Part shown: positions 1 to 55,017 of the stretch, one piece after another
Layout: each line of letters starts with the position of its first letter
Position numbering within the stretch: position 1 is the first letter of the stretch
NCBI GenBank assembly: GCA_002839705.1
Contig: PGYO01000013.1
Coordinates: 1 to 55,017 of the forward strand
Reading direction: 5' to 3'
Source of the DNA: Methanobacteriales archaeon HGW-Methanobacteriales-1
GTDB lineage: Archaea; Methanobacteriota; Methanobacteria; Methanobacteriales; Methanobacteriaceae
DNA: 55,017 bases
The notes under the pieces: model-generated
Database searches by the model: none
Told to the model about the DNA's origin: nothing
The model's input: only the letters and a program-made list of their open reading frames with translations
Translations under genes and position numbers: made by a program

Positions 1-1
1 T

Positions 2-1144
2 CATCTAGTTATTAGTCTTAGTAATCTGGGCCCTAAAGCGTGTGATGCTAAGTTGAATTATAAGATTCCAGTGGGTTTGAAGTTATTATCTTCTCAAGGG
101 CCGGGGGCCTATGATGAGGTTACTGGTGTGTGGAATGCTGGTTTGTTGTTGGTGAATGATAGTGTTAGTTTGGATTTGGTTTTGCAGGCCACTAATATTG
201 GTTATTTTGTGAATATGGTGAGTGTTTATGGTGATTTAACCAGTACACATGCCGTGCCCGCGAAGCCGATTGTTAAGGTTTTTAATGGAAAGTGGAAGTC
301 TACTGCGGCCATGAGTGATTCTAATAATGGGAATAATGTGGCTAGTTTTATTTTAGATGTTAGGACTATTAATGCTCCAAGTACTGGTAGTTTTGATTAT
401 AAGTGGCCTGATGATGTGCCTCCGGTGCCGGATGGTCCTATTAAGCCACAATCTCCTCAGGATTCTAAGGATCCTCAGAAACCTCAGGATCCTCCTAAAC
501 CATCTAAACCTTCAAATGATCAATTACCTAGGGATATTAATAGTGTGCGTGATATTGTAAGTGGTACGTCTGATGCAAAATTGGCTGATTGGAATTTAGA
601 GGTTGTGCCGCCTGCTCCAGATGACTGGGAAACATTATCTAACATGCTTGATGTTGCTATGGAGTTGTTATATTTCGCTAATATTGCTAGAACGCCAGGA
701 TCAAATGAATATTTGCAGGAAGTAAAAAATGGGATGATGAATGCCATGAATGGAATAAAAATGGCTTCAGAATATTTCATAAAAGATCCCAGACAAGCAT
801 TAAGATTTTTAAAAGAATCATTCATGAATTCTGGCGAAAAAGATATTATTAAGAAGTTTTGGAAGAGTGAAAGCAATTTTAAGCTGGATCCGAATATAGC
901 TCAAAAAATCCTAGTAGACAAACTTTGTTCTAAATATCCTTGGGCTGAAGGTAAAATAAGAAATGTATTTGGGCTTTTAAGCTCAGCACAATTTGCTTTG
1001 GATCCTATTGCTATTTGGAAAGCTTGGGGTGAATTATTATCTGGTTTAATGGAAAACAAAGACCAAATAACTGAAATGAATATTATGGATATCATAAATG
1101 CTATTTTAACTACACTTAACCCGATACCAATACCAATTCCATAA
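2..1144 (+). CDS. Surface protein with DUF11-like domain and variable C-terminal tip (5' end outside window)
   Basis: The frame is open from base 2, so the true start lies upstream; the first in-window start codon (TTG at 53) is internal. Visible order: a DUF11-like beta-sandwich repeat (about residues 1-125), a Pro/Lys/Asp-rich linker, a short motif (NDQLPRDINSVRDIVSG then DAKLADW, bases about 512-600), and a mainly helical tip of about 180 residues ending in an alternating Ile/Pro tail. DUF11 repeats are typical of exported archaeal surface proteins, so I infer that the complete protein is exported and that the tip is the exposed or delivered end. The tip is homologous to the one at 4447-5703 and unlike the one at 3098-3674. 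A zinc-ribbon paralogue follows 73 bases downstream. The tip's function is not recognisable from sequence; toxin is a hypothesis based on layout. Confidence 0.8.
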   Translation, partial: HLVISLSNLGPKACDAKLNYKIPVGLKLLSSQGPGAYDEVTGVWNAGLLLVNDSVSLDLVLQATNIGYFVNMVSVYGDLTSTHAVPAKPIVKVFNGKWKSTAAMSDSNNGNNVASFILDVRTINAPSTGSFDYKWPDDVPPVPDGPIKPQSPQDSKDPQKPQDPPKPSKPSNDQLPRDINSVRDIVSGTSDAKLADWNLEVVPPAPDDWETLSNMLDVAMELLYFANIARTPGSNEYLQEVKNGMMNAMNGIKMASEYFIKDPRQALRFLKESFMNSGEKDIIKKFWKSESNFKLDPNIAQKILVDKLCSKYPWAEGKIRNVFGLLSSAQFALDPIAIWKAWGELLSGLMENKDQITEMNIMDIINAILTTLNPIPIPIP

Positions 1145-1217
1145 TTTTTATCCTTAACTTAAATAGTATTATTATTAATCATATCAATATTCAAATAACA
1201 ATTAGTGTGGGATTAAT

Positions 1218-2186
1218 ATGGTGAAAACTTGGATGAAAATTATAAATAGTACTTTTGACTTAAAGGATAAAATTAATGCGTCCTTGGGTCGCGAAACTCG
1301 CGTAGAGTGGAATAAACGTAAACTTGATGAATATTTTATTTATTTGAGAGGTTTAGAGTTTCAGGGCTTGGATGGCATTTTAGATGAGGCTGTTTTTTTA
1401 TGGGAGTCTGGCTTGTATAAGCAATTTATGTTGTCATATGAGCCAAGCTTTAAGGTTGCGACTGAAAGAGTTTTTACCGAGGAAGAGGCTTTAAAAAATC
1501 GTTTATTATCTTTGGCAAGAGAATACTTATCTCCAAGTGGTGCCAGAACGGTTTCTTTAAAAATCACAGATCAGAATGTTTTCAAATCTTTACATAATAT
1601 GATTGAAACAGCTTATTTTTTTAATTATCAGTCTTCTTTCATATGGAACGATATTTTAAATATATATTTTGGAGGTTTACCTGAAAGGCTGATTTTAGGA
1701 TTAGAAAAATTTGATGAGTTTTCACATACTCCTCAACCTACTAATGAGTTTTTCCAGAAACTTGCTAAAACTCAGATAACACAAAAAGACACCTATGATT
1801 TAAATCAAAAAATGTTTTTTCTATTAATGCATATCGAAGATACAATTTTTGGACATAACTTTGGGGACTTTAATGAGGAATATCGACCAACAGAAGGCCA
1901 TTTCATTCGTTTATTAGCGGGTTGTAGTGCGGCTCATAATAATCGTGAATTCACAGCCCCTGAAGATATTATAATGGCTTATAAAACTTTTTTTAAGCTT
2001 ATTAAAACTGATATTACTGTTTATAAGGCTCCTCAGAGTATTATTGATTCTATTCCGGAGTTCACAGGTTATTTGGTTTGTGATAAGTGTGGTGTTTCTC
2101 ATGGCCTGGGCCCAGATGATTCTCCTGAGGATTATTCTGATGTTTGTGATTGTGGTGGTCATTTAGTTTATAAAGATAGTATTTAG
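1218..2186 (+). CDS. Helical protein with C-terminal zinc ribbon; candidate partner/immunity protein (B1)
   Basis: A 322-residue protein with no signal peptide or membrane segment, so probably cytoplasmic. The body is helical and homologous to the 247-residue proteins at 2347 and 3690: all share an N-terminal region with an SGLY/SGIY motif, an FFQKL motif, and a segment with AGCS/SGCS followed by (I/L)xAYKT(F/L)FK(L/I)I(K/R)TDI. B1 adds a C-terminal zinc ribbon (CDKCG ... CDCGG, last 40 residues). The start could be ATG 1218 or GTG 1221; the related gene at 5764 starts at the position matching 1221, and a GTGGGAT ribosome site precedes both. It lies 73 bases after a surface-protein tip gene, as its paralogue does at 5764. 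Family function is unknown to me; immunity protein, chaperone or regulator are all possible. Confidence 0.75.
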   Translation: MVKTWMKIINSTFDLKDKINASLGRETRVEWNKRKLDEYFIYLRGLEFQGLDGILDEAVFLWESGLYKQFMLSYEPSFKVATERVFTEEEALKNRLLSLAREYLSPSGARTVSLKITDQNVFKSLHNMIETAYFFNYQSSFIWNDILNIYFGGLPERLILGLEKFDEFSHTPQPTNEFFQKLAKTQITQKDTYDLNQKMFFLLMHIEDTIFGHNFGDFNEEYRPTEGHFIRLLAGCSAAHNNREFTAPEDIIMAYKTFFKLIKTDITVYKAPQSIIDSIPEFTGYLVCDKCGVSHGLGPDDSPEDYSDVCDCGGHLVYKDSI

Positions 2187-2189
2187 TCG

Positions 2190-2300
2190 TTTTTCTCATG
2201 ATGGTGTTCTTAAATCGGATGTAATATCTGGTCCGTCTCCTTTTGGTTTGTGTTTTGATAGTTATGGTAAGTTATGGATTTGGATGGGAGTATATTCGCC
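2190..2300 (+). pseudogene. Scrap of surface beta-propeller gene
   Basis: This piece starts just after the stop of the gene at 1218-2186 and reads FSHDGVLKSDVIS...FDSYGKLWI, matching the propeller of the surface protein at 54800-54925. Bases 2193-2229 are identical to 54803-54839. The copy then loses an ATGGAT unit and one G, shifting the frame, and runs to a stop (TAG near 2325). It has no start codon or domain of its own. It is best read as debris left by recombination with a full surface-protein gene. Confidence 0.8.
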
Positions 2301-2346
2301 GGAATTTTATAATAAAAAATCTTAGATATTAAATAATGGGGGTCAT

Positions 2347-3090
2347 ATGTTGTTAAATGCTAAGTTTCGTAAGCCTTCACGTGAGAATTTTGGGTATTAT
2401 GAATTGAAAAAGTTGAAGAATAAATATCCTGATGAGGATATCGATGGCTTGGTGGTTCTTTTAATCGAGTTGTTAGATTCAGGTATTTATTTTGACTTAT
2501 TTGATATTTTTTCTAATTGGAAAGAGCCTGTTTCGGCTATGAGTGATAATAGTTTAGAAATTGCTAGTGAAAGTTATCTTTTGACTCTTGCACATGAAAA
2601 TCTCAATCATAAGCCAGGCATTTTTTCTTCAGATCTCATTAATTATCCGATGTTTTATTATTTCTTTCCATTTTTGGAATGGATCTATTCCATGAATTTA
2701 GAAAGAGATTTAATGCCTGATGATGTTTTAAATTTATTTAAAAGTGGTTTGGGTGAAAAAATCACATTTTATTTATTGGATTTTGATAGAATAGAAGAAA
2801 ATCCTGAAATTACTAATGATTTCTTTCAGAAATTAAAAAAAATCAAATGGGAAAATAGGAAAACTAAAGATTTTTATTCTAGGATGGAACGAGTTTTAAG
2901 ATTCCATGCTTTTAATGGATATGGCGTTAAAGAAGCCTCTTTTCTTACAACTCAAATGGATATAATCCTATTTTTATCAGGATGCAGCTCCGTTAAAGAG
3001 AACAGACAAAAAATAATAACTGAAGACGTTTTAATAGCATATAAAACCTTATTTAAAATCATTAGAACCGATATTTCTAAATTAATTTAG
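2347..3090 (+). CDS. Helical cytoplasmic-type protein without zinc ribbon (C1)
   Basis: A 247-residue protein starting at ATG 2347 behind a GGGGGT ribosome site. It is a close paralogue of the protein at 3690-4430 (shared FGYYELKKLK start, FLEWVYSM/FLEWIYSM centre, AYxTLFKIIRTDISKLI end) and a more distant one of the zinc-ribbon proteins at 1218 and 5764. No signal peptide, membrane helix or catalytic motif is visible. It is preceded by the propeller scrap and followed by a surface-tip fragment, so it has no intact tip gene directly upstream. If the family are immunity proteins, this would be an orphan immunity gene, as is common at polymorphic toxin loci. Function not recognised. Confidence 0.7.
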   Translation: MLLNAKFRKPSRENFGYYELKKLKNKYPDEDIDGLVVLLIELLDSGIYFDLFDIFSNWKEPVSAMSDNSLEIASESYLLTLAHENLNHKPGIFSSDLINYPMFYYFFPFLEWIYSMNLERDLMPDDVLNLFKSGLGEKITFYLLDFDRIEENPEITNDFFQKLKKIKWENRKTKDFYSRMERVLRFHAFNGYGVKEASFLTTQMDIILFLSGCSSVKENRQKIITEDVLIAYKTLFKIIRTDISKLI

Positions 3091-3097
3091 TTATAGG

Positions 3098-3674
3098 GTG
3101 CTAGAGATTATTAATGCTTTGAAGTCTCTAGTACTTTATGATATCAGTATTAAAGATAAGCAGCCAGATCTTGAGCCTCCATGGGATCCACAACCAAAAG
3201 TATCTAATGATCAGTTGCCGGGGGATATTCGCAGCATAAGAGATGTTGTAAGTGGAGTAAAAGATGCTAAAATAGCAGACTGGACACTAAATCCATTTAA
3301 TGATGATACTGATATGAATGCATCCCATGTTGATGTACCGGATTGGGCATATAAAAATCGGAATACTACAGGCATTATCTTCCACATGGCTATATCTGTC
3401 ATATTTGGGTTATTCACTTAAAAAATTCATTGAAAAATCAGTTTTAGACTTTTTCATTGAATATGGGTTTTATGTTACTCCAAATCTTCAGGAAATGCTA
3501 CTTACTCCAATCACTGGTTTTGGTTCAATGAATGTAATCGGTCTTGGTTTAAGAAATTTAGCAGTAATGGTTCCAGCTTTAGAACCTTATATTGTACCTG
3601 TAACAGATATTTTAGATCAATTAACGTTAATGGATGTAGTCCAAAAATTTAATGAACTTTTAAGTAAAAAATAG
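3098..3674 (+). pseudogene. Frameshifted orphan surface-protein tip cassette (second tip class)
   Basis: Translation from GTG 3098 gives a short VLYDIS stretch (matching the end of the propeller region near 52905 in the large surface gene), then directly a short proline linker and the conserved NDQLPGDIRSIRDVVSG...DAKIADW motif. The DUF11 domain is missing. After the motif the sequence differs from the tips at 1144 and 5703. The first frame stops at 3421; a second frame, open through about 3395 to 3674, continues sensibly (helical, hydrophobic LTPITGFGS and LRNLAVMVPALEPYIVPVTD segments). A single indel between about 3330 and 3395 would explain this. No signal peptide. The gene at 3690 follows after 15 bases. 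I read it as a displaced, now broken, tip module. Confidence 0.7.
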
Positions 3675-3689
3675 GAATGGTGTTGATTA

Positions 3690-4430
3690 ATGTCTTTTAG
3701 AGAAAAATTACGAATTCCTTCAAATAGGGATTTTGGTTATTATGAATTAAAAAAATTGAAGGCTAAGTATCCTAATGTGGATGTGGATGGCTTTGTAGAT
3801 GATTTAATGGATGTTATTGATTCTGGACTTTATGAAAAATTATTTGATGTTTATGTTAATTGGGACGAACCGGTTCCATTAGACAGTCCGTTGAGTAATG
3901 AAATCGCTTTTGAAAGCCCAATTTTAGTTTTGGCTTCGAAAAATTTAAGGAAGAAATCCCTTATTTCGTCTGATGTGATACACTTCAGTACATTTTATTT
4001 TTTCCTACCATTTTTAGAATGGGTATATTCTATGAGTTTAGGCCGTAAATTAGACTTGAAAGACGTTAAAATACTTTTTACAAGCACTATTCCTGAAAAA
4101 ATTGCTTTAAATTTGCTTGATTTTGATAAAGTAAAGAATAACAATGAAGTTACTCCTGAGTTTTTTAATAGTCTCAAAGAGTTAAAATGGGAAAATAATA
4201 AGATTAAAGATTTTTATAAAAGAACAGAGAAGTTATCTGGGTTTTTTATTTTTAGAGAGGAGGATATGAAGGAAAATTCATTTATAGTACACCAAAAACG
4301 AATTATAATATTTTTAGCGGGCTGTTCAGCCGTAAAAAAAGGAGAAAGTGTTATAAATATAGATGATATTATTCTAGCCTATGAAACCTTATTTAAGATT
4401 ATTAGAACGGATATATCTAAATTAATTTAG
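3690..4430 (+). CDS. Helical cytoplasmic-type protein without zinc ribbon (C2)
   Basis: A 246-residue paralogue of the protein at 2347-3090, starting at ATG 3690 behind a GGTG ribosome site. The two proteins end in the same IIRTDISKLI. No signal peptide, membrane helix or zinc ribbon is seen. It lies 15 bases after the frameshifted second-class tip cassette, as zinc-ribbon paralogues lie after first-class tips at 1218 and 5764; tip class and partner class thus co-vary in this array. On that basis I infer it is the partner of the second tip class. Biochemical function is unknown. Confidence 0.7.
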   Translation: MSFREKLRIPSNRDFGYYELKKLKAKYPNVDVDGFVDDLMDVIDSGLYEKLFDVYVNWDEPVPLDSPLSNEIAFESPILVLASKNLRKKSLISSDVIHFSTFYFFLPFLEWVYSMSLGRKLDLKDVKILFTSTIPEKIALNLLDFDKVKNNNEVTPEFFNSLKELKWENNKIKDFYKRTEKLSGFFIFREEDMKENSFIVHQKRIIIFLAGCSAVKKGESVINIDDIILAYETLFKIIRTDISKLI

Positions 4431-4446
4431 AGGATTAAAGACTTAA

Positions 4447-5703
4447 ATTCTCATAATTTATGATATTAGTGTTAATGCTTTGAATACAACTAGTGAGGCC
4501 ACGGATTTGGCCGTGAATATCACGGGTAATGCTAGTAGTTTAGGTATTGGTGATACGGTTCATTTGATTATTAGTCTTAGCAATATGGGCCCTAAAAATA
4601 GTGATGCTAAGTTGAATTATAAGATTCCGGTGGGTTTGAAGTTATTATCTTCTCAAGGGCCAGGGGCCTACGATTCGGCCAGTGGTGTGTGGAATGCCGG
4701 TTTATTATTAGTTAATGATAGTGTTAGTTTGGATTTGATGTTGCAGGCCACAAATATTGGTTATTTTGTGAATACAGTGAGTGTTTATGGTGATTTAACC
4801 AGCACCCATGCTACTAAACCTATTGTTAAGATTTTCAATGGTAAGTGGAGATCCACCGCGTCCATGGCTGATTTTAATAGTGGGAATAATATGGCCACTT
4901 ATAATATTGATGTTAGATCTCCGACTAATCCTAAACCTAACCATGAATATAAGTGGCCTGATTTGCCAGATCCGACCCCTAAGCCTCAACCTCATCCAAA
5001 TCCTAAGCCAGAACCTCAACCAGATCCTGAGCCTAAACCACCATGGGACTCTCAACCTAATATAAATAATGATCAACTACCTCGAGACATAAATAGTGTT
5101 AGAGATGTTGTAAACGGAGTAAAAGATGCTAAAATAGCAAATTGGAATATGACTCTAGATTCTCCAATTGATAAGAATGAATTATTATCTTATGCTATTG
5201 ATATAGCTGCAGAATTGATTTATATTGGTGCAATGGTGGGAACTCCGGGATCTGGTGAATACTTACAACAAGTCAAAAATGGAATGATAGAAGCAGGAGC
5301 TGCTTTAAAAATGGCTGCAGAATATTTTATAAAAGACCCCCGACAGGATTTTAGATTACTAAAAAGGTCTTTTAAGAATGTTGGTGAGAATGAAAATCAG
5401 TTAAAATTTTTGGATGATTTTTCTAAGAATACATTTAGAATAGATCCAAACATTGCTCAGAAGTTAGTAGGGGATGCTTTATGTGAGATTTTCCCGAAGC
5501 AAGCTGGAAAAATAAAAGTTTTCTTTAATGTAATGGGCCCTGCACAATTCCTCTTAGATCCATTAGAAATTTGGAAATCTTGGGGGGAAGTGGTATACAG
5601 TCTCTTTGTGGACGGATTTGGTCAGGGTGACTATGGTAAAGTCGTAGATAACTTCTGGGAAGCATTAGATCAAACTTTTAATCATCCTCTTCCAGGTACA
5701 TAA
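4447..5703 (+). CDS. Surface-protein 3' cassette: DUF11-like domain, Pro linker, variable tip; no signal peptide
   Basis: The frame is open from 4447 (after a TAA at 4444); the first usable start is TTG 4480. The first residues (IIYDISVNAL) match the propeller/DUF11 junction of the large surface protein, so this is a 3' part of such a gene rather than a complete one. A DUF11-like domain follows, almost the same as in the gene at 2-1144, then a P-x-P-rich linker, the NDQLPRDINSVRDVVNG...DAKIANW motif, and a helical first-class tip (TPGSGEYLQ, EYFIKDPRQ, DPNIAQK, IWKSWGE). There is no signal peptide and no convincing ribosome site, so the gene may be silent or a donor for recombination. It is followed 60 bases later by a zinc-ribbon partner gene. 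Confidence 0.7.
   Translation: MLIIYDISVNALNTTSEATDLAVNITGNASSLGIGDTVHLIISLSNMGPKNSDAKLNYKIPVGLKLLSSQGPGAYDSASGVWNAGLLLVNDSVSLDLMLQATNIGYFVNTVSVYGDLTSTHATKPIVKIFNGKWRSTASMADFNSGNNMATYNIDVRSPTNPKPNHEYKWPDLPDPTPKPQPHPNPKPEPQPDPEPKPPWDSQPNINNDQLPRDINSVRDVVNGVKDAKIANWNMTLDSPIDKNELLSYAIDIAAELIYIGAMVGTPGSGEYLQQVKNGMIEAGAALKMAAEYFIKDPRQDFRLLKRSFKNVGENENQLKFLDDFSKNTFRIDPNIAQKLVGDALCEIFPKQAGKIKVFFNVMGPAQFLLDPLEIWKSWGEVVYSLFVDGFGQGDYGKVVDNFWEALDQTFNHPLPGT
4560..4918 (+). repeat. Long direct repeat of DUF11 coding sequence (other copy 1-365)
   Basis: Bases 4560-4918 align with 1-365 at high identity, with long identical runs and one 6-base length difference near 4810 (copy one has extra GCCGTGCCCGCG-type sequence near 250-262). 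The similarity fades in the proline linker, returns at the pre-tip motif and stays protein-level in the tip. Near-identity at synonymous sites suggests recent duplication or gene conversion. Confidence 0.85.
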
Positions 5704-5763
5704 ATAATAAATGTCAAATCAATATTATAAATTATTACAAATCAATATTATGGGGGGATTATT

Positions 5764-6624
5764 TTGAAAACTTGGATGAAATTTCTGAATTCGACTTTTG
5801 ATTTTAAAGATAAAATCAACTCTTCTTTGGGTAGAGAGACTAGAGTTGATTGGAATAATAGAAAGCTTAAAGAATATTCGGAATATCTGAGGAATTTAAA
5901 AATAAAAAATTTAGATATTATTTTAGATGAATTAATGAATAACTGGAGGTCTGGCTTTTATAAAGAGTTAATGTTATCATTTGTTGCTGATAAGGATGAT
6001 ACTAGGTTTCTGACTTTTGATGAGTTATATAATAATCGTTTACTTGTCTTAGCAGCTGAAAATTTATCTAAAACAAATCTTAAGACTATTGCTTTCAGTA
6101 AAACAGATCTAAATGTTTTTAAGACTATGCAACCTTTCATTGACACAATATATTTCATGAATATTGGCCATAAATTTACGTGGGAAGATGTTTTGAATAC
6201 CTTCTTCAATGGCCTAGATGCAAGACTAATGTTTGGATTAGATAAATTCGATGAACTAAAAGATGCTCCAGAACCTACAGCTGAATTTTTTCAGAAATTA
6301 GGCGAAACACAAATAGCAAGCAAGGCAACATCTGACTTATACATGAAATTAACACTTTTACAGATGCATATAGAAGATGACATATTTGGCATTAATTCTG
6401 ATGATGTAATAATGGCCTATAAGACTTTTTTGAAGTTAATTAAAACTGATATTACAGTTTATAAGGCTCCTCAGAGTATTATTGATTCTATGCATGAGTT
6501 CACGGGGGCTCTGGTTTGTGATAAGTGTGTTGTTTCTCATGGAATGGGTCCAGAGGATTCTCCGGATGATTTTGAGAATACTTGTGAATGCGGTGGCCAT
6601 TTAATTTATAAAAAGGAAATTTAA
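5764..6624 (+). CDS. Helical protein with C-terminal zinc ribbon (B2), internally shortened
   Basis: A 286-residue paralogue of the protein at 1218-2186, starting at TTG 5764 after a strong GGGGGG ribosome site. The bodies align throughout, but this copy lacks about 36 residues before VIMAYKTF, exactly the segment with the conserved AGCS motif. The zinc ribbon is kept (CDKCV ... CECGG), though the usual Gly after the second Cys is Val. It follows a first-class tip cassette by 60 bases, the same arrangement as 1144/1218. Its last 4 bases overlap the convergent sepS gene. Function unknown; the deletion could mean this copy is decaying or that the segment is dispensable. Confidence 0.75.
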   Translation: MKTWMKFLNSTFDFKDKINSSLGRETRVDWNNRKLKEYSEYLRNLKIKNLDIILDELMNNWRSGFYKELMLSFVADKDDTRFLTFDELYNNRLLVLAAENLSKTNLKTIAFSKTDLNVFKTMQPFIDTIYFMNIGHKFTWEDVLNTFFNGLDARLMFGLDKFDELKDAPEPTAEFFQKLGETQIASKATSDLYMKLTLLQMHIEDDIFGINSDDVIMAYKTFLKLIKTDITVYKAPQSIIDSMHEFTGALVCDKCVVSHGMGPEDSPDDFENTCECGGHLIYKKEI

Positions 6625-8216
6625 TCCATTCTACAAACCAACGTAGAAAATATAGGGCCCCTAATATCAATTTCTTTATTATTTCCCGTGATATAATTCA
6701 AGGCCACATTATCCAGCTGTAGATTTATATCGGAAAGTGATCGGGCAATGGTGCTCCTAATTTTAATTTCATCCATGCCACTAACCACCATTTCTTCTAC
6801 TTTGTAGGCGGCCTGAGCAGCAAGAGCTTCTAAATAACTGGTATTAATTGGTATTCCTTTATCAACGGCCTTTTTTATTAGAGGATCATCCAATTTTCCT
6901 TCTACCGGAACTCCTACAATGTTTCCTTGATAAATGTAAACCTGATTTTTAGCTGCTGGGCCCAAGAGTCGGGTGTCGGATTCTTCTTCCACGGCTTCTA
7001 AAATAATTTTTTTACCTAAAAATTCTCCAGAGAATATGGTAATCTCGCAGGGGGATTCTGCCGATGCATTTTCACTCCAAACAGAAATTATATTCTCCAT
7101 GAGGGCCTTACCCTCTTCAGTAACTGGATAATAATTTATACGCAGCATAGTGGCCAAATCACGATCACTGAGTTCCCATTTACCATATATTTGGGGATAA
7201 ACCATTTCCCTAATGTCATTTGCCTGATTCAGGACCATGGCCATTCTCTCAGCACCTACTCCCAGGTTCATGACTTCTTTATCAATGCCATATTTGGAAA
7301 GGGCAATAGGAGAATACAATCCGAAGGTGGCGATTTCTATCCATTCTTTTAACTTAGGATGGTATCCATAAACCTCAGTCTGGGTTTCAGGGATATAATA
7401 TTTGGATTTTTTCTCATCAGGAATGAATTTGAACTTGGAAAAACCAAAATACTCCAGTAAACTTTCAGAAATTGCCTTACCCATGTCCAGAGAAACTTCT
7501 TCATCCACTACCACACAAGAAGCAGAATGATAGGTCATCAAGTGGCTGGAATCTTCTCTTTGTTCCCTTCTAAAACATCTATCAATTGAAAACAGTTTTA
7601 AGGGTAGTTTAGAATGATTGTGGGCATTTTGTAATGATATAAACCATCCAGACGTCATATGGGATCGTAAGGTGGTTCTGCTGGATATGGGTTTTAATTC
7701 ATGTATTTCTGGAAATACCTTCTCCAGAACCCGCAGGCCAACATGGTCTTCCACTTCAAGGGATGCAGAAACATCGTGTACTAGATCGTCCCCTTCCACA
7801 TTTCCCTTTTTATAACCTCTAAAAACATCTTGAAGGCCTTTTAAATGGTCTTCATTAACTTCCACACCTAACTTTTCAATTTTTTCTATTTTATCGATTC
7901 CCAAGCCAATATCTGGTCTAGGAAGACCTGCCAAGTAGAAACAACGGTCAAGAACTGCAGGGGCTTCTGGTCCGAACTGCTTGTAAACATGATCTTCTTC
8001 CACAAAAAGAGGATTTATAGTTTCCTGAAAACCTAACTGCAGATAGGCTTGTCTTATCTGCCATATGGTGTCGTATAGAACGTGTGATTTCCCGGTAGTA
8101 AATCGTAACCGGGGGTGTTGCTGGTCATGGTGTGGGGTTTTTAATAATTTTCCACTTTCCATCCATGCCTTTTCAAAATCTTTCTTAGCCAGCTTTATAA
8201 TCTTTTTTTTGTCCAA
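6621..8216 (-). CDS. sepS: O-phosphoserine--tRNA(Cys) ligase
   Basis: A 531-residue class II synthetase that charges tRNA(Cys) with O-phosphoserine; SepCysS then converts it to Cys-tRNA, the route used by methanogens for both tRNA charging and cysteine supply. Visible family features: TLRSHMTSGW at about 182-191, the class II motif-2 region FSIDRCFRREQREDSSHL at 209-226, and motif 3 GVGAERMAMVL around 319-329. Length matches archaeal SepRS. I place the start at TTG 8216 because a GGGGG ribosome site lies six bases before it and there is no nearby upstream ATG; the N-terminus MDKKKIIKLAKKDFEKAW is family-like. It is convergent with the accessory array and divergent from tfrA. SepCysS is not in the window. 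Confidence 0.95.
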   Translation of the reverse strand: MDKKKIIKLAKKDFEKAWMESGKLLKTPHHDQQHPRLRFTTGKSHVLYDTIWQIRQAYLQLGFQETINPLFVEEDHVYKQFGPEAPAVLDRCFYLAGLPRPDIGLGIDKIEKIEKLGVEVNEDHLKGLQDVFRGYKKGNVEGDDLVHDVSASLEVEDHVGLRVLEKVFPEIHELKPISSRTTLRSHMTSGWFISLQNAHNHSKLPLKLFSIDRCFRREQREDSSHLMTYHSASCVVVDEEVSLDMGKAISESLLEYFGFSKFKFIPDEKKSKYYIPETQTEVYGYHPKLKEWIEIATFGLYSPIALSKYGIDKEVMNLGVGAERMAMVLNQANDIREMVYPQIYGKWELSDRDLATMLRINYYPVTEEGKALMENIISVWSENASAESPCEITIFSGEFLGKKIILEAVEEESDTRLLGPAAKNQVYIYQGNIVGVPVEGKLDDPLIKKAVDKGIPINTSYLEALAAQAAYKVEEMVVSGMDEIKIRSTIARSLSDINLQLDNVALNYITGNNKEIDIRGPIFSTLVCRMD

Positions 8217-51046: not shown

Positions 51047-51118
<72 letters not shown>

Positions 51119-51132
51119 CTATTTTTTGTTTA
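51119..51132 (+). terminator. T-run after tRNA-Arg
   Basis: CTATTTTTTGTTT follows the tRNA without a stem-loop; oligo-T tracts of this kind stop archaeal RNA polymerase. Confidence 0.5.
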
Positions 51133-51365
51133 AATTTATCAGAGCCAGTTTTCTATAATTTTATTTCATATACTTTTATTTTATTTAATTATATTTTAAA
51201 AAAATCATGTTTAATATTACTTTTCTTTATAATTGTAATTTTATATTTTTGTTATTATATTAGTTTTTCTATTTGGTTATTAATGGAATACTTTATTAGT
51301 AATATGTTATCCATCTAAGTTTAAGTAATACTGTATTAATTATTAGTAGGGTGGGGAATTATATT

Positions 51366-54300
51366 TTGAGAATTTATAACGTTTTATTATTGTTATCAAT
51401 ATTTTTGATTTTTAATATGGGTGGTGTATTTGCTGCAGGCCCAGAAACTAATTATACCAATGATTCTGATTTTGATAAAGGCAATTTGACTGGATTAGAG
51501 CATAATAGTACTCATAACCAATTGCAGCTTTCTAATAGTTCTAGTTCTACAAATCCTTTTATTTGGGTTCCTAATAGCAATGAAGGAACAGTTTCTAAAA
51601 TAAATACCGTAACGGGTATGGAAGTGGCTCGATACAAGACAAGTAATCTTACTTACTCTAATCCTTCCAGGACTACCGTGGATTTAGAGGGTAACTGCTG
51701 GGTGGGTAACCGGAACATAGGTACCGTGGTTAAAATTGGGCTTTTAGAAAGTGGTCAGTGGATTGACCGTAACCAAAATGGTGTAGTAGACACCTGTCGT
51801 GATGTGGATGGTAATGGATTAATTAATTCCACCGAGATTCTTCCCTGGGGCATGGACGAATGTGTATTATGGGAAGTAGTTCTGATTCCTGGAAGTGAAG
51901 GCAATTTTGTTCCAGGTAAATACAATGGATCTTACGTAAATGACTATTACACTCCAGGACCACGTGGTTTAGCCATAGATTCTAAAAATAATCTCTGGGT
52001 AGGAACTTATGGGACCATGAAATATTATTATGTGAATGGTTCAGATGGTCAGATTTTAAAGACAATTGATGTTTCATCTGTGGGTCACACTCCTTATGGT
52101 GCAGTAATAGATCAAAATGGGATTCTCTGGTCTTCTGGAAATACGGGTAATAATGTTTTAAGGTTAGATCCTTCCAATGGTACTTTCACCAGAATTAATC
52201 TTCCCCATAAATCATATGGTTTGGCTTTGGATCGTAATAATCATTTATTTGTCTCAGGACTGGATTATTATGCTATAACTTGTATTAATGTTTTAAATGG
52301 GACTATTTTATGGACTAAGTCTGCTTCCTATGCTCAGGGGATAACTGTTTCTGATGATGGTGATATCTGGACTGCAGACAATACTAAGGGAACGGTTACT
52401 CGTTATTCTAATAATGGTATTTTTAAGGCAACTATTATTGTGGGGAATTCTCCCAGTGGGGTTTCTGTGGATAATTTGGGCAAAATCTGGGCAGTGGATA
52501 CCAATGATGAATATATTCACCGTATAAATCCAGCTAATGATCAAACTGATGGTGAGGGAAATATTGTCAATGGGGTGGAATTCTCCAAGAGAATAGTGGG
52601 AGGAACCCATTATGGATACAGTGACATGACAGGGGCCTTATCCAATACCATCACCACTAATCATGGATCATGGGACTTAATTCATGATTCAGGTATAAAT
52701 AATGCCTTATGGGGTGTTATATCGTGGAATGCTTATATTCCTAATGGCACTAGTGTGAATGTACGTGTTAGAAGTTCTAATGATAAAATTACCTGGTCTA
52801 ATTGGGAAGAAGCAATAAATGGTGAATATTTGAATTCAACACCAAATGGTAGGTATTTGGAAGTGGAAACTACTCTGGAGAGATTTAAGGGTAGTGTTTC
52901 TCCTGTACTTTATGATCTAAGTGTTCGGGTCTTAAAATCAGATATTAATATTTTAAATGGTATAAATAACTCGGTTCCTAAATTAGGGGACACTATTAAA
53001 CTGGTTACAGTGCTTACTAATGTTGGGCCGGATTCTGCCCATAATATAACGGTAGTTGCGAATATTCCCCCTGGGTTTAAACCATTAATTCCAAGCATAG
53101 GTGTTCTTAATGGTACTGTGTGGACTATTAAAACTTTAATTCCGGGCGAGATTGCCAGACTGGAGATTGTAGGTAATATAACTCAAAATTTAACCAGTAA
53201 AAACATTACTTACTCTGCTAATGAAACCCACAGTGAATATGATTCTAAGACTAATCCACCCTCTACTATTAAATTCTATGTTCCTTTTTCAGATGTTAAA
53301 CTGGATTATTCCCTTAAAAATGGTAAGCCTACTTTGATGGTGCGGAATATTGGCCCGGATGATGCTTTTAATATTAATGTGAAAACTTCTATACCTTCGG
53401 GTTATACTCCTAAAACCTTGGGTGGTACTTATAAAGGAGGCACCTGGATTATAACTTCTATTCCATCTAATGGGACAGTTACAATGACTTTGGTTCCATT
53501 AGCAGGTAATAAAACTCATAACACTTCTAATCCTTCCAGTCCAGGGCATCATGGTTCAATTAATAATCCTCATGAAGTGAATAATCAAAATTCTACTCAG
53601 GTAAATGCAAGTTCTTCTTCTCAAACTAGAAAGGCTTCTTCAGTGCCTATGCAGCAGACTGGAGTCCCTATTAATTTTTCAGCCATTGCTATTCTTTTCA
53701 TGTTCTTTGCAGCCTATTTAAATAAAAATGACAATGAAATCAGGCCTAATAAATGGCTGATATTGTTTGTTGTCTTGTTCTTAGCCTTGCTCTGTATGGG
53801 AAATGTAGGGGCGGCGGATACTACTTATACTACTGATGAGGACTTCTCGAAGGGCACCTTTAATAATGTTAATGGGTCTGATGGTTCATTGAAGTTGGAT
53901 AATTCATCTAATGCTGCTCGTAACTATATCTGGATACCTAACAGCAATGAAGGAACTATATCTAAAGTTAATGTGAAGACGGGCCAGGAAGTGGCTCGTT
54001 ATAAAACTAATCCTGCATCTAATGCAGAACCAGTACGTATCGCAGTGGATAGTCAGGGTAATTGCTGGGCAGCCAACCGGGTAACAGGTTCTTTAATTAA
54101 AATTGGCCTGTATGAAAATGGGGTTTATTATGATCTAAATCATGATGGTATTATTCAAACCTGCCATGATGTGGATAAAAATGGTATTATAACTCCGGAT
54201 GAGGTTTTAAACTGGGGATCTGATGAATGTGTAACATTGGAGACAATTATAATTCCTGGTAAAGAGGGAGTATTCCATCCGGGATCATATGATGGAGCTT

Positions 54301-55017
54301 ATGCTGCTTATGGTACTGGATTGACTTCTCTAGCGCTGGATAATAAAGACAATGTCTGGCTGGGTATTGGTGAAAATCAAACTTTAATGTATATTAATGG
54401 TTCCAGTGGAGAGATTTTGAATAGTTACAATGTCACTGCCTATGGCCACAGTCCTAATTTTTCAGTTATAGATAAGAATGGAATTTTATGGTCGGGGGGA
54501 AGTAATTTACTGCGTTTGGATCCAAGCACGGGTTCCCTTAGTGTAATGGATATGGGTTACACTATTTTTGATTTGGCCTATGATGGTGATGATCATATAT
54601 TTTCTTATGGGGTTCATCCACACATTTTATGGCCAGATAGTCGTTTTTCGAGGATTAATATTGAAAATAACACTGTAGACTGGACACAATCATTGCCTTA
54701 CATGCACGCAGGGTCTCTAGCAGTTAATAGTAATGGTGATGTATGGTTAGCACAGTATTATAACCACTGGTGGTGGGGTAAATACACTGCTTTTGGTGTT
54801 TATTCTCATGATGGTGTTCTTAAATCGGATGTAATATCTAGTACATCTCCTTTTGGCCTGTTTTTTGATAGTTATGGTAAGTTGTGGATTATGGATTTGG
54901 ATGGGGAGTATATTCACAGGTTTGATACTAGTATAAATGGTGTTGATCTTTCTAAAAGATTGGTATCTACTAATCACAATGCCTTAGGTTATTGTAGTGT
55001 TAAGTCACCGGATAAGT
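51366..55017 (+). CDS. Very large surface protein: two propeller proteins joined in one reading frame (3' end outside window)
   Basis: The frame is open without a stop from TTG 51366 (site GGTGGGG; GTG 51351 is an in-frame alternative) to the window end, at least 1217 codons. Unit one: signal peptide (VLLLLSIFLIFNMGGVFA), a streptogramin-lyase/NHL-like beta-propeller with repeated WxxN, LW and NxG strands (about 55-400), then SPVLYDLSV and DUF11-like repeats (about 510-720), a Ser/Asn/Thr-rich stretch and a C-terminal membrane helix (FSAIAILFMFFAAYL, near 53685-53720). Unit two follows at once with its own signal-like helix (WLILFVVLFLALLCM, near 53754-53798) and a second, homologous propeller. 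Many N-x-S/T sites support an exported glycoprotein. Either this is a true fusion or translation of unit two starts inside. Confidence 0.85.
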   Translation, partial: MRIYNVLLLLSIFLIFNMGGVFAAGPETNYTNDSDFDKGNLTGLEHNSTHNQLQLSNSSSSTNPFIWVPNSNEGTVSKINTVTGMEVARYKTSNLTYSNPSRTTVDLEGNCWVGNRNIGTVVKIGLLESGQWIDRNQNGVVDTCRDVDGNGLINSTEILPWGMDECVLWEVVLIPGSEGNFVPGKYNGSYVNDYYTPGPRGLAIDSKNNLWVGTYGTMKYYYVNGSDGQILKTIDVSSVGHTPYGAVIDQNGILWSSGNTGNNVLRLDPSNGTFTRINLPHKSYGLALDRNNHLFVSGLDYYAITCINVLNGTILWTKSASYAQGITVSDDGDIWTADNTKGTVTRYSNNGIFKATIIVGNSPSGVSVDNLGKIWAVDTNDEYIHRINPANDQTDGEGNIVNGVEFSKRIVGGTHYGYSDMTGALSNTITTNHGSWDLIHDSGINNALWGVISWNAYIPNGTSVNVRVRSSNDKITWSNWEEAINGEYLNSTPNGRYLEVETTLERFKGSVSPVLYDLSVRVLKSDINILNGINNSVPKLGDTIKLVTVLTNVGPDSAHNITVVANIPPGFKPLIPSIGVLNGTVWTIKTLIPGEIARLEIVGNITQNLTSKNITYSANETHSEYDSKTNPPSTIKFYVPFSDVKLDYSLKNGKPTLMVRNIGPDDAFNINVKTSIPSGYTPKTLGGTYKGGTWIITSIPSNGTVTMTLVPLAGNKTHNTSNPSSPGHHGSINNPHEVNNQNSTQVNASSSSQTRKASSVPMQQTGVPINFSAIAILFMFFAAYLNKNDNEIRPNKWLILFVVLFLALLCMGNVGAADTTYTTDEDFSKGTFNNVNGSDGSLKLDNSSNAARNYIWIPNSNEGTISKVNVKTGQEVARYKTNPASNAEPVRIAVDSQGNCWAANRVTGSLIKIGLYENGVYYDLNHDGIIQTCHDVDKNGIITPDEVLNWGSDECVTLETIIIPGKEGVFHPGSYDGAYAAYGTGLTSLALDNKDNVWLGIGENQTLMYINGSSGEILNSYNVTAYGHSPNFSVIDKNGILWSGGSNLLRLDPSTGSLSVMDMGYTIFDLAYDGDDHIFSYGVHPHILWPDSRFSRINIENNTVDWTQSLPYMHAGSLAVNSNGDVWLAQYYNHWWWGKYTAFGVYSHDGVLKSDVISSTSPFGLFFDSYGKLWIMDLDGEYIHRFDTSINGVDLSKRLVSTNHNALGYCSVKSPDK

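Follow-up and report, generated by a model that had tools for sequence, protein, structure and literature searches.

The 3′ end of the window (the whole stretch of DNA analysed, 55,017 nucleotides, which is the entire contig G000:C13) carries two surface propeller proteins joined in one reading frame, and sequence comparison establishes this as a genuine fused gene conserved in one Methanobacteriaceae genus. Its product is probably a precursor, cleaved at the join to give a constant propeller anchored to the wall (unit 1) and a variable second protein (unit 2). Taken together, we moderately favour a reading in which a single precursor would be cleaved into a constant unit 1 and a unit 2 with a toxin-like tip, the tip being matched by a partner gene and replaced by cassette swapping.

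Architecture of the fused gene

The frame is open from 51351 or 51366 to the last base at 55017, at least 1,217 codons without a stop. The likely start is TTG 51366, with GGGTGGGG upstream. The window is the entire contig and the gene runs off its end, so the gene lacks its 3′ part here. The following features were located:

51047-51119, +, tRNA-Arg(GCG), immediately upstream of the fused gene; marks chromosomal site 2
51349-51356, +, GGGTGGGG, ribosome-binding-like, ahead of TTG 51366 (sequence)
51366-51434, +, signal peptide 1; hydrophobic core at residues 6-24; proposed cleavage VFA↓AG
51435-52605, +, propeller 1 (Vgb_lyase/NHL/SGL; Pfam)
52941-53252, +, DUF11 domain of unit 1, residues 526-629 (Pfam)
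53646-53669, +, anchor/sorting motif PMQQTGVP
53664-53720, +, TM1, C-terminal-type anchor helix of unit 1, residues 767-785 (hydropathy)
53721-53756, +, 12-residue loop NKNDNEIRPNKW between TM1 and TM2, presumed cytoplasmic
53757-53813, +, TM2, internal signal peptide of unit 2, residues 798-816 (hydropathy)
53814-55017, +, propeller 2; C-terminal half variable; cut off by the contig end

The initial annotation had described two propeller proteins whose frame runs without interruption through a membrane anchor and a signal-peptide-like helix. The frame was confirmed to begin at TTG 51366 and to stay open up to the contig end, and both flanking units gave Vgb_lyase/NHL/SGL and DUF11 Pfam matches. 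In the part of the protein encoded by the window, hydropathy picked out three strong membrane segments and no others (residues 6-24, 767-785 and 798-816), the last being the expected second signal-like helix. Both junction helices are thus real and closely spaced, but the limits given earlier, 53685-53720 and 53754-53798, were slightly narrow, and the loop is 12 residues long rather than about 15.

Conservation and origin of the fusion

The same uninterrupted fusion was found, in copies that are full-length or long, at G000:C12, G002:C11, G001:C6 and G001:C89, giving five copies in three species (G000 is the window's genome; G001 and G002 are two related species of the same genus). The second copy in the window's genome, from G000:C12:72333 onward, is 91% identical; the copies at G002:C11 and G001:C6 are each 90% identical, and that of G002 has a complete frame of 1,695 codons. 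Propeller 1 shares about 92–98% identity between copies in most windows of the comparison. The junction is the most conserved segment and is under strong purifying selection, with dN/dS of 0–0.11, below that of the rest of the fused gene, at dS of about 0.2–0.46 in most comparisons. Because the fusion recurs in other copies and its junction is under purifying selection, the frame is neither a chance event nor an assembly error.

Loss of a stop codon had been suggested as the simplest origin, with a stop expected at the junction in relatives; all four other copies instead read through. That one strain lost a stop recently, or that the frame is an artefact of sequencing or assembly, might be suspected from the draft assembly and the repeated sequence at both contig ends, but an independent second copy and two other species share the frame despite their synonymous divergence and with the junction conserved, which rules this explanation out for practical purposes.

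The two halves of the complete G002 protein are 40% identical over 638 aa, in an alignment beginning inside the signal peptides. Because this similarity includes the signal peptide, the fused gene evidently goes back to a signal peptide-propeller-DUF11 unit that was duplicated in tandem and fused, a relationship that the initial annotation did not note. A more distant relative (G049) encodes an unfused propeller and DUF11 protein with a similar terminal anchor, followed by a stop codon.

Predicted processing at the junction

The sequence VPMQQTGVP sits ahead of TM1. A degenerate DNA pattern for PM(Q/K)xTGxP gave 12 matches in G000 and G002, against 0 for the reversed control. Three of them are fused genes; the remaining nine are all in surface-protein-like frames, 28–31 residues ahead of the stop, and these frames end in mostly basic residues. 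As the motif is elsewhere found only at this distance from a stop, unit 1 appears to keep its own sorting signal, which bears out the view of TM1 as a C-terminal-type anchor that has become internal. Set against LPxTG-type sortase substrates, PMQQTGVP is followed by a hydrophobic helix and K/R and has the conserved TG, but the pentapeptide in PM(Q/K)xTGxP departs from the classical LPxTG and the signal lies inside the protein. The window's genome encodes two sortases and a signal peptidase S26. Sorting by an exosortase or archaeosortase was rejected, PF09721 having no match in three genomes of the genus.

TM2 aligns with signal peptide 1, including the small-residue V-x-A↓A site. We infer that cleavage of TM2 would occur at VGA↓AD, and the VFA↓AG site proposed for signal peptide 1 was taken from this homologous position in unit 2. 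The sorting signal of unit 1 and the signal peptide of unit 2 would thus both still work, so that one precursor would yield two surface proteins. In the proposed sequence of events, the mRNA would be translated as a single precursor; the ribosome-Sec complex would export unit 1, halt at TM1 and resume export at TM2, and signal peptidase would cleave after VGA. Unit 1 would then either remain at the envelope by way of TM1 or be transferred by a sortase, at T↓G, to the pseudomurein wall. It would be the constant part, and both the variable propeller and the exchangeable tip would belong to unit 2.

Signal peptidase is known to cut other polyproteins, single frames whose two exported products are split at an internal signal peptide. 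Bradyrhizobium FbcH (cytochrome b/c1) is one example. The flavivirus structural precursors are another (PMC7601889). Both differ from the present case, where the parts are duplicated archaeal surface propellers and the cleavage is predicted. The junction may offer a clean natural case of archaeal surface polyprotein processing at an internal signal peptide and sorting signal.

The initial annotation had instead considered a membrane hairpin with two outward propellers. In this reading the uncut protein would keep TM1, loop and TM2 as a stable structure, and the tip would form a further membrane-associated end. The strong hydrophobicity and near invariance of TM1 and TM2 would suit such a hairpin, as would the net positive charge of the loop, expected of a cytoplasmic one. 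However, a plain hairpin needs neither a TM2 that aligns with a true signal peptide, V-x-A↓A site included, nor a complete terminal sorting motif at TM1. Since these sorting and signal sequences are conserved, cleavage at the join appears at least as likely, and we regard an uncut hairpin as possible but rather doubtful.

A second suggestion, that two proteins result from internal initiation near ATG 53700, is very improbable. This ATG is in frame, but the codon is not conserved, being TTG (Leu) in both G001 copies, and a start there would fall inside TM1. No Shine-Dalgarno sequence was found before the in-frame start codons at the junction of the window's gene; a weak AGGT precedes one junction ATG in three other copies and is absent from this one. 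With the codon not conserved and no ribosome-binding site, the internal start was discarded.

Exchangeable tips and their partner genes

The full-length G002 gene shows how unit 2 continues: DUF11, a Pro-rich linker, the motif QLPRDIxSVRD and then a hydrophobic, apparently helical tip. Downstream lie a partner gene and then a truncated cassette (DUF11-linker-tip) with its own partner. The first 6.6 kb of the window, which the initial annotation passed over, consist of cassettes of the same multi-cassette locus, of which the fused gene forms the 5′ part:

2-1144, +, orphan cassette: DUF11 end, Pro-rich linker, motif QLPRDINSVRD, variable tip
1218-2186, +, partner gene of the first orphan cassette, 322 aa, zinc ribbon
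2167-2322, +, decayed remnant of the propeller-2 3′ end (cassette left arm)
2347-3090, +, partner gene without an intact tip, 247 aa
3086-3671, +, frameshifted, degenerate tip cassette, its partner gene still present
3690-4430, +, partner gene, 246 aa
4480-5703, +, orphan cassette: DUF11, Pro-rich linker, motif, tip
5764-6624, +, partner gene, 286 aa, zinc ribbon; adjoins SepS
6621-8216, −, SepS (reading of translation)

Further arrays were present in G000 (contigs C24 and C25) and in G001 (five contigs, among them C24, C127, C130 and C131). Several cassettes begin within sequence nearly identical to the propeller 2 3′ end, which therefore provides homology for cassette exchange; others begin later. 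The cassettes evidently constitute a silent reservoir of tips and partners sharing flanks with the 3′ end of the fused gene.

The first half of the fused protein is constant, and the tips vary after the conserved motif. Tip similarity closely followed partner similarity (Mantel r 0.86, p 5e-5, 22 tip-partner pairs), with r 0.955 for the last 135 residues of the tip (15 pairs) and r 0.83–0.89 after dereplication, whereas the control, tip versus the DUF11 segment of the same cassette, gave r 0.10–0.20. Since a tip predicts its partner and hardly its own DUF11, tip and partner move as a unit, independent of the scaffold. The tip and partner of the full-length G002 gene are 97.7% and 98.3% identical, respectively, to an orphan cassette in G001, and at G001:C89 propeller 2 is replaced just after the junction, the first half being unchanged. 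Recombination between cassettes and the full-length gene would swap tip and partner jointly.

A second tip class, with the motif RLGQDILNVRE, was seen at G001:C89 (L039, 2-4633) and G000:C25 (L041, 2478-4857). These tips are short, have strong membrane helices and are paired with two different, non-homologous-looking downstream genes of about 206–229 and 129 aa.

Chromosomal sites

The system occupies two sites, whose flanking genes ribB, SepS, paaK and truD were named by reading their translations. Site 1, between ribB and SepS, was found at the end of G000 C12 and the start of C13, on G002 C11 and on G001 C127; from the gene order of G002, we infer that C12 joins C13 here. Site 2, after tRNA-Arg(GCG), holds the window's fused gene and lies beside paaK/truD in G001:C131 and, in another genus, G014:C99. 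The window's genome has it filled, as do G001 and G014 on the side of paaK; in G002 it is empty (L126, G002:C11:132000-147500), with tRNA-Arg, a 113-aa ORF and paaK.

Comparison with polymorphic toxin systems and surface proteins

The locus works like a polymorphic toxin-immunity system, in the sense of a shared logic. As in the systems described by Zhang et al. 2012 (PMC3482391), there is a secreted scaffold with a variable C-terminal domain and a matched downstream gene, standalone tip cassettes occur, and full-length proteins are similar except at the C-terminus. Here, the export signal and trafficking scaffold correspond to the signal-peptide-like N-terminus, propellers and DUF11; the downstream gene travels with its tip (Mantel r 0.83–0.96 overall, against the low DUF11 control), and standalone tips lie nearby, at window positions 1-6621 and on G000 and G001 contigs. 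The present system differs in being archaeal, with a fused double-propeller scaffold that has an internal anchor and signal peptide. Many polymorphic toxins swap unrelated domains, whereas the tips here resemble one another and form one diverging family without a known toxin domain. Unit 2 would act as a polymorphic-toxin-like effector or recognition protein, and the cytosolic or membrane partner would shield the producer from its own tip.

Neither the tips (known families or toxin domains) nor the partner family had a convincing match in Pfam, NCBIfam, PADLOC or PHROGs, and the AlphaFold models were too poor for structural comparison (pLDDT 37 for the tip, 42 for the partner). The lack of a recognised toxin domain and the resemblance among the tips weigh against the toxin reading. 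The hydrophobic helical tips without a known toxin domain and the adhesin-like scaffolds would also fit an adhesin, a kin-recognition system or a surface protein that has its own cytosolic secretion chaperone, and a co-diversifying cytosolic partner suits a chaperone as well. However, tandem runs of up to four tip-less partners, partners lacking a tip and membrane-anchored partner versions suit immunity better than a chaperone, and we consider these alternatives unlikely, though not negligibly so.

Two groups of archaeal surface proteins invite comparison. The VARTIG modules of Thermococcales comprise a hypervariable Ig-domain surface protein with variable downstream genes (PMC8416519); the polymorphic-toxin-like organisation is shared, but the present proteins are built from propellers and DUF11 and occur in Methanobacteriaceae. 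The Methanobrevibacter adhesin-like proteins (PMC2812497) are likewise large exported surface proteins of methanogens with a pseudomurein wall, with envelope anchors and genomic sortases; the part of that source available describes them as single units, without a fused unit, exchangeable tip or partner gene. The literature searched contained no description of the fused scaffold; its coverage stopped short of a 2019 survey of archaeal polymorphic toxins, where this family may already be listed.

In its fullest form, the toxin-immunity reading is of an archaeal surface polyprotein, giving a constant wall-anchored propeller and a variable one with cassette-drawn tips and matched immunity genes, which we put forward tentatively. 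If true, methanogens would have a system of polymorphic toxins or of kin discrimination whose platform and weapon come from one precursor in a fixed ratio. To our knowledge, methanogen conflict and self-recognition systems have hardly been studied experimentally, and the locus supplies concrete matched tip-partner pairs for such study in Methanobacteriaceae.

The partner family beyond the fused genes

The partner family was found in 27 of the 152 genomes of the phylum searched, in nine genera, all of them Methanobacteriaceae. In several of these genomes, other genera included, partner genes immediately follow genes for large exported surface proteins, and up to four or more partners can stand in tandem. 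Several partners carry extra membrane helices. The preceding surface proteins include right-handed beta-helix proteins and, in G010, propeller-like ones; some have basic C-termini.

We also observed an optional C-terminal zinc ribbon (CDKC...CxCGG) in the partners at 1218-2186 and 5764-6624 of the window, as well as in unrelated proteins of these genomes; some partners have three C-terminal membrane helices in its place. A related second system was seen at L075 (G000:C12, 2-3800), L077 (G010:C11, 2201-14646) and L078. Its exported proteins are single-propeller-like and carry other C-terminal tips; behind them come two to four partner-family genes in tandem, and orphan tips. At L102 (3575-11801), L106 (5070-9135) and L108 (8005-11859), the partner family stands directly behind large beta-helix/adhesin-like exported proteins, some of whose C-termini are strikingly basic and resemble cationic peptides.
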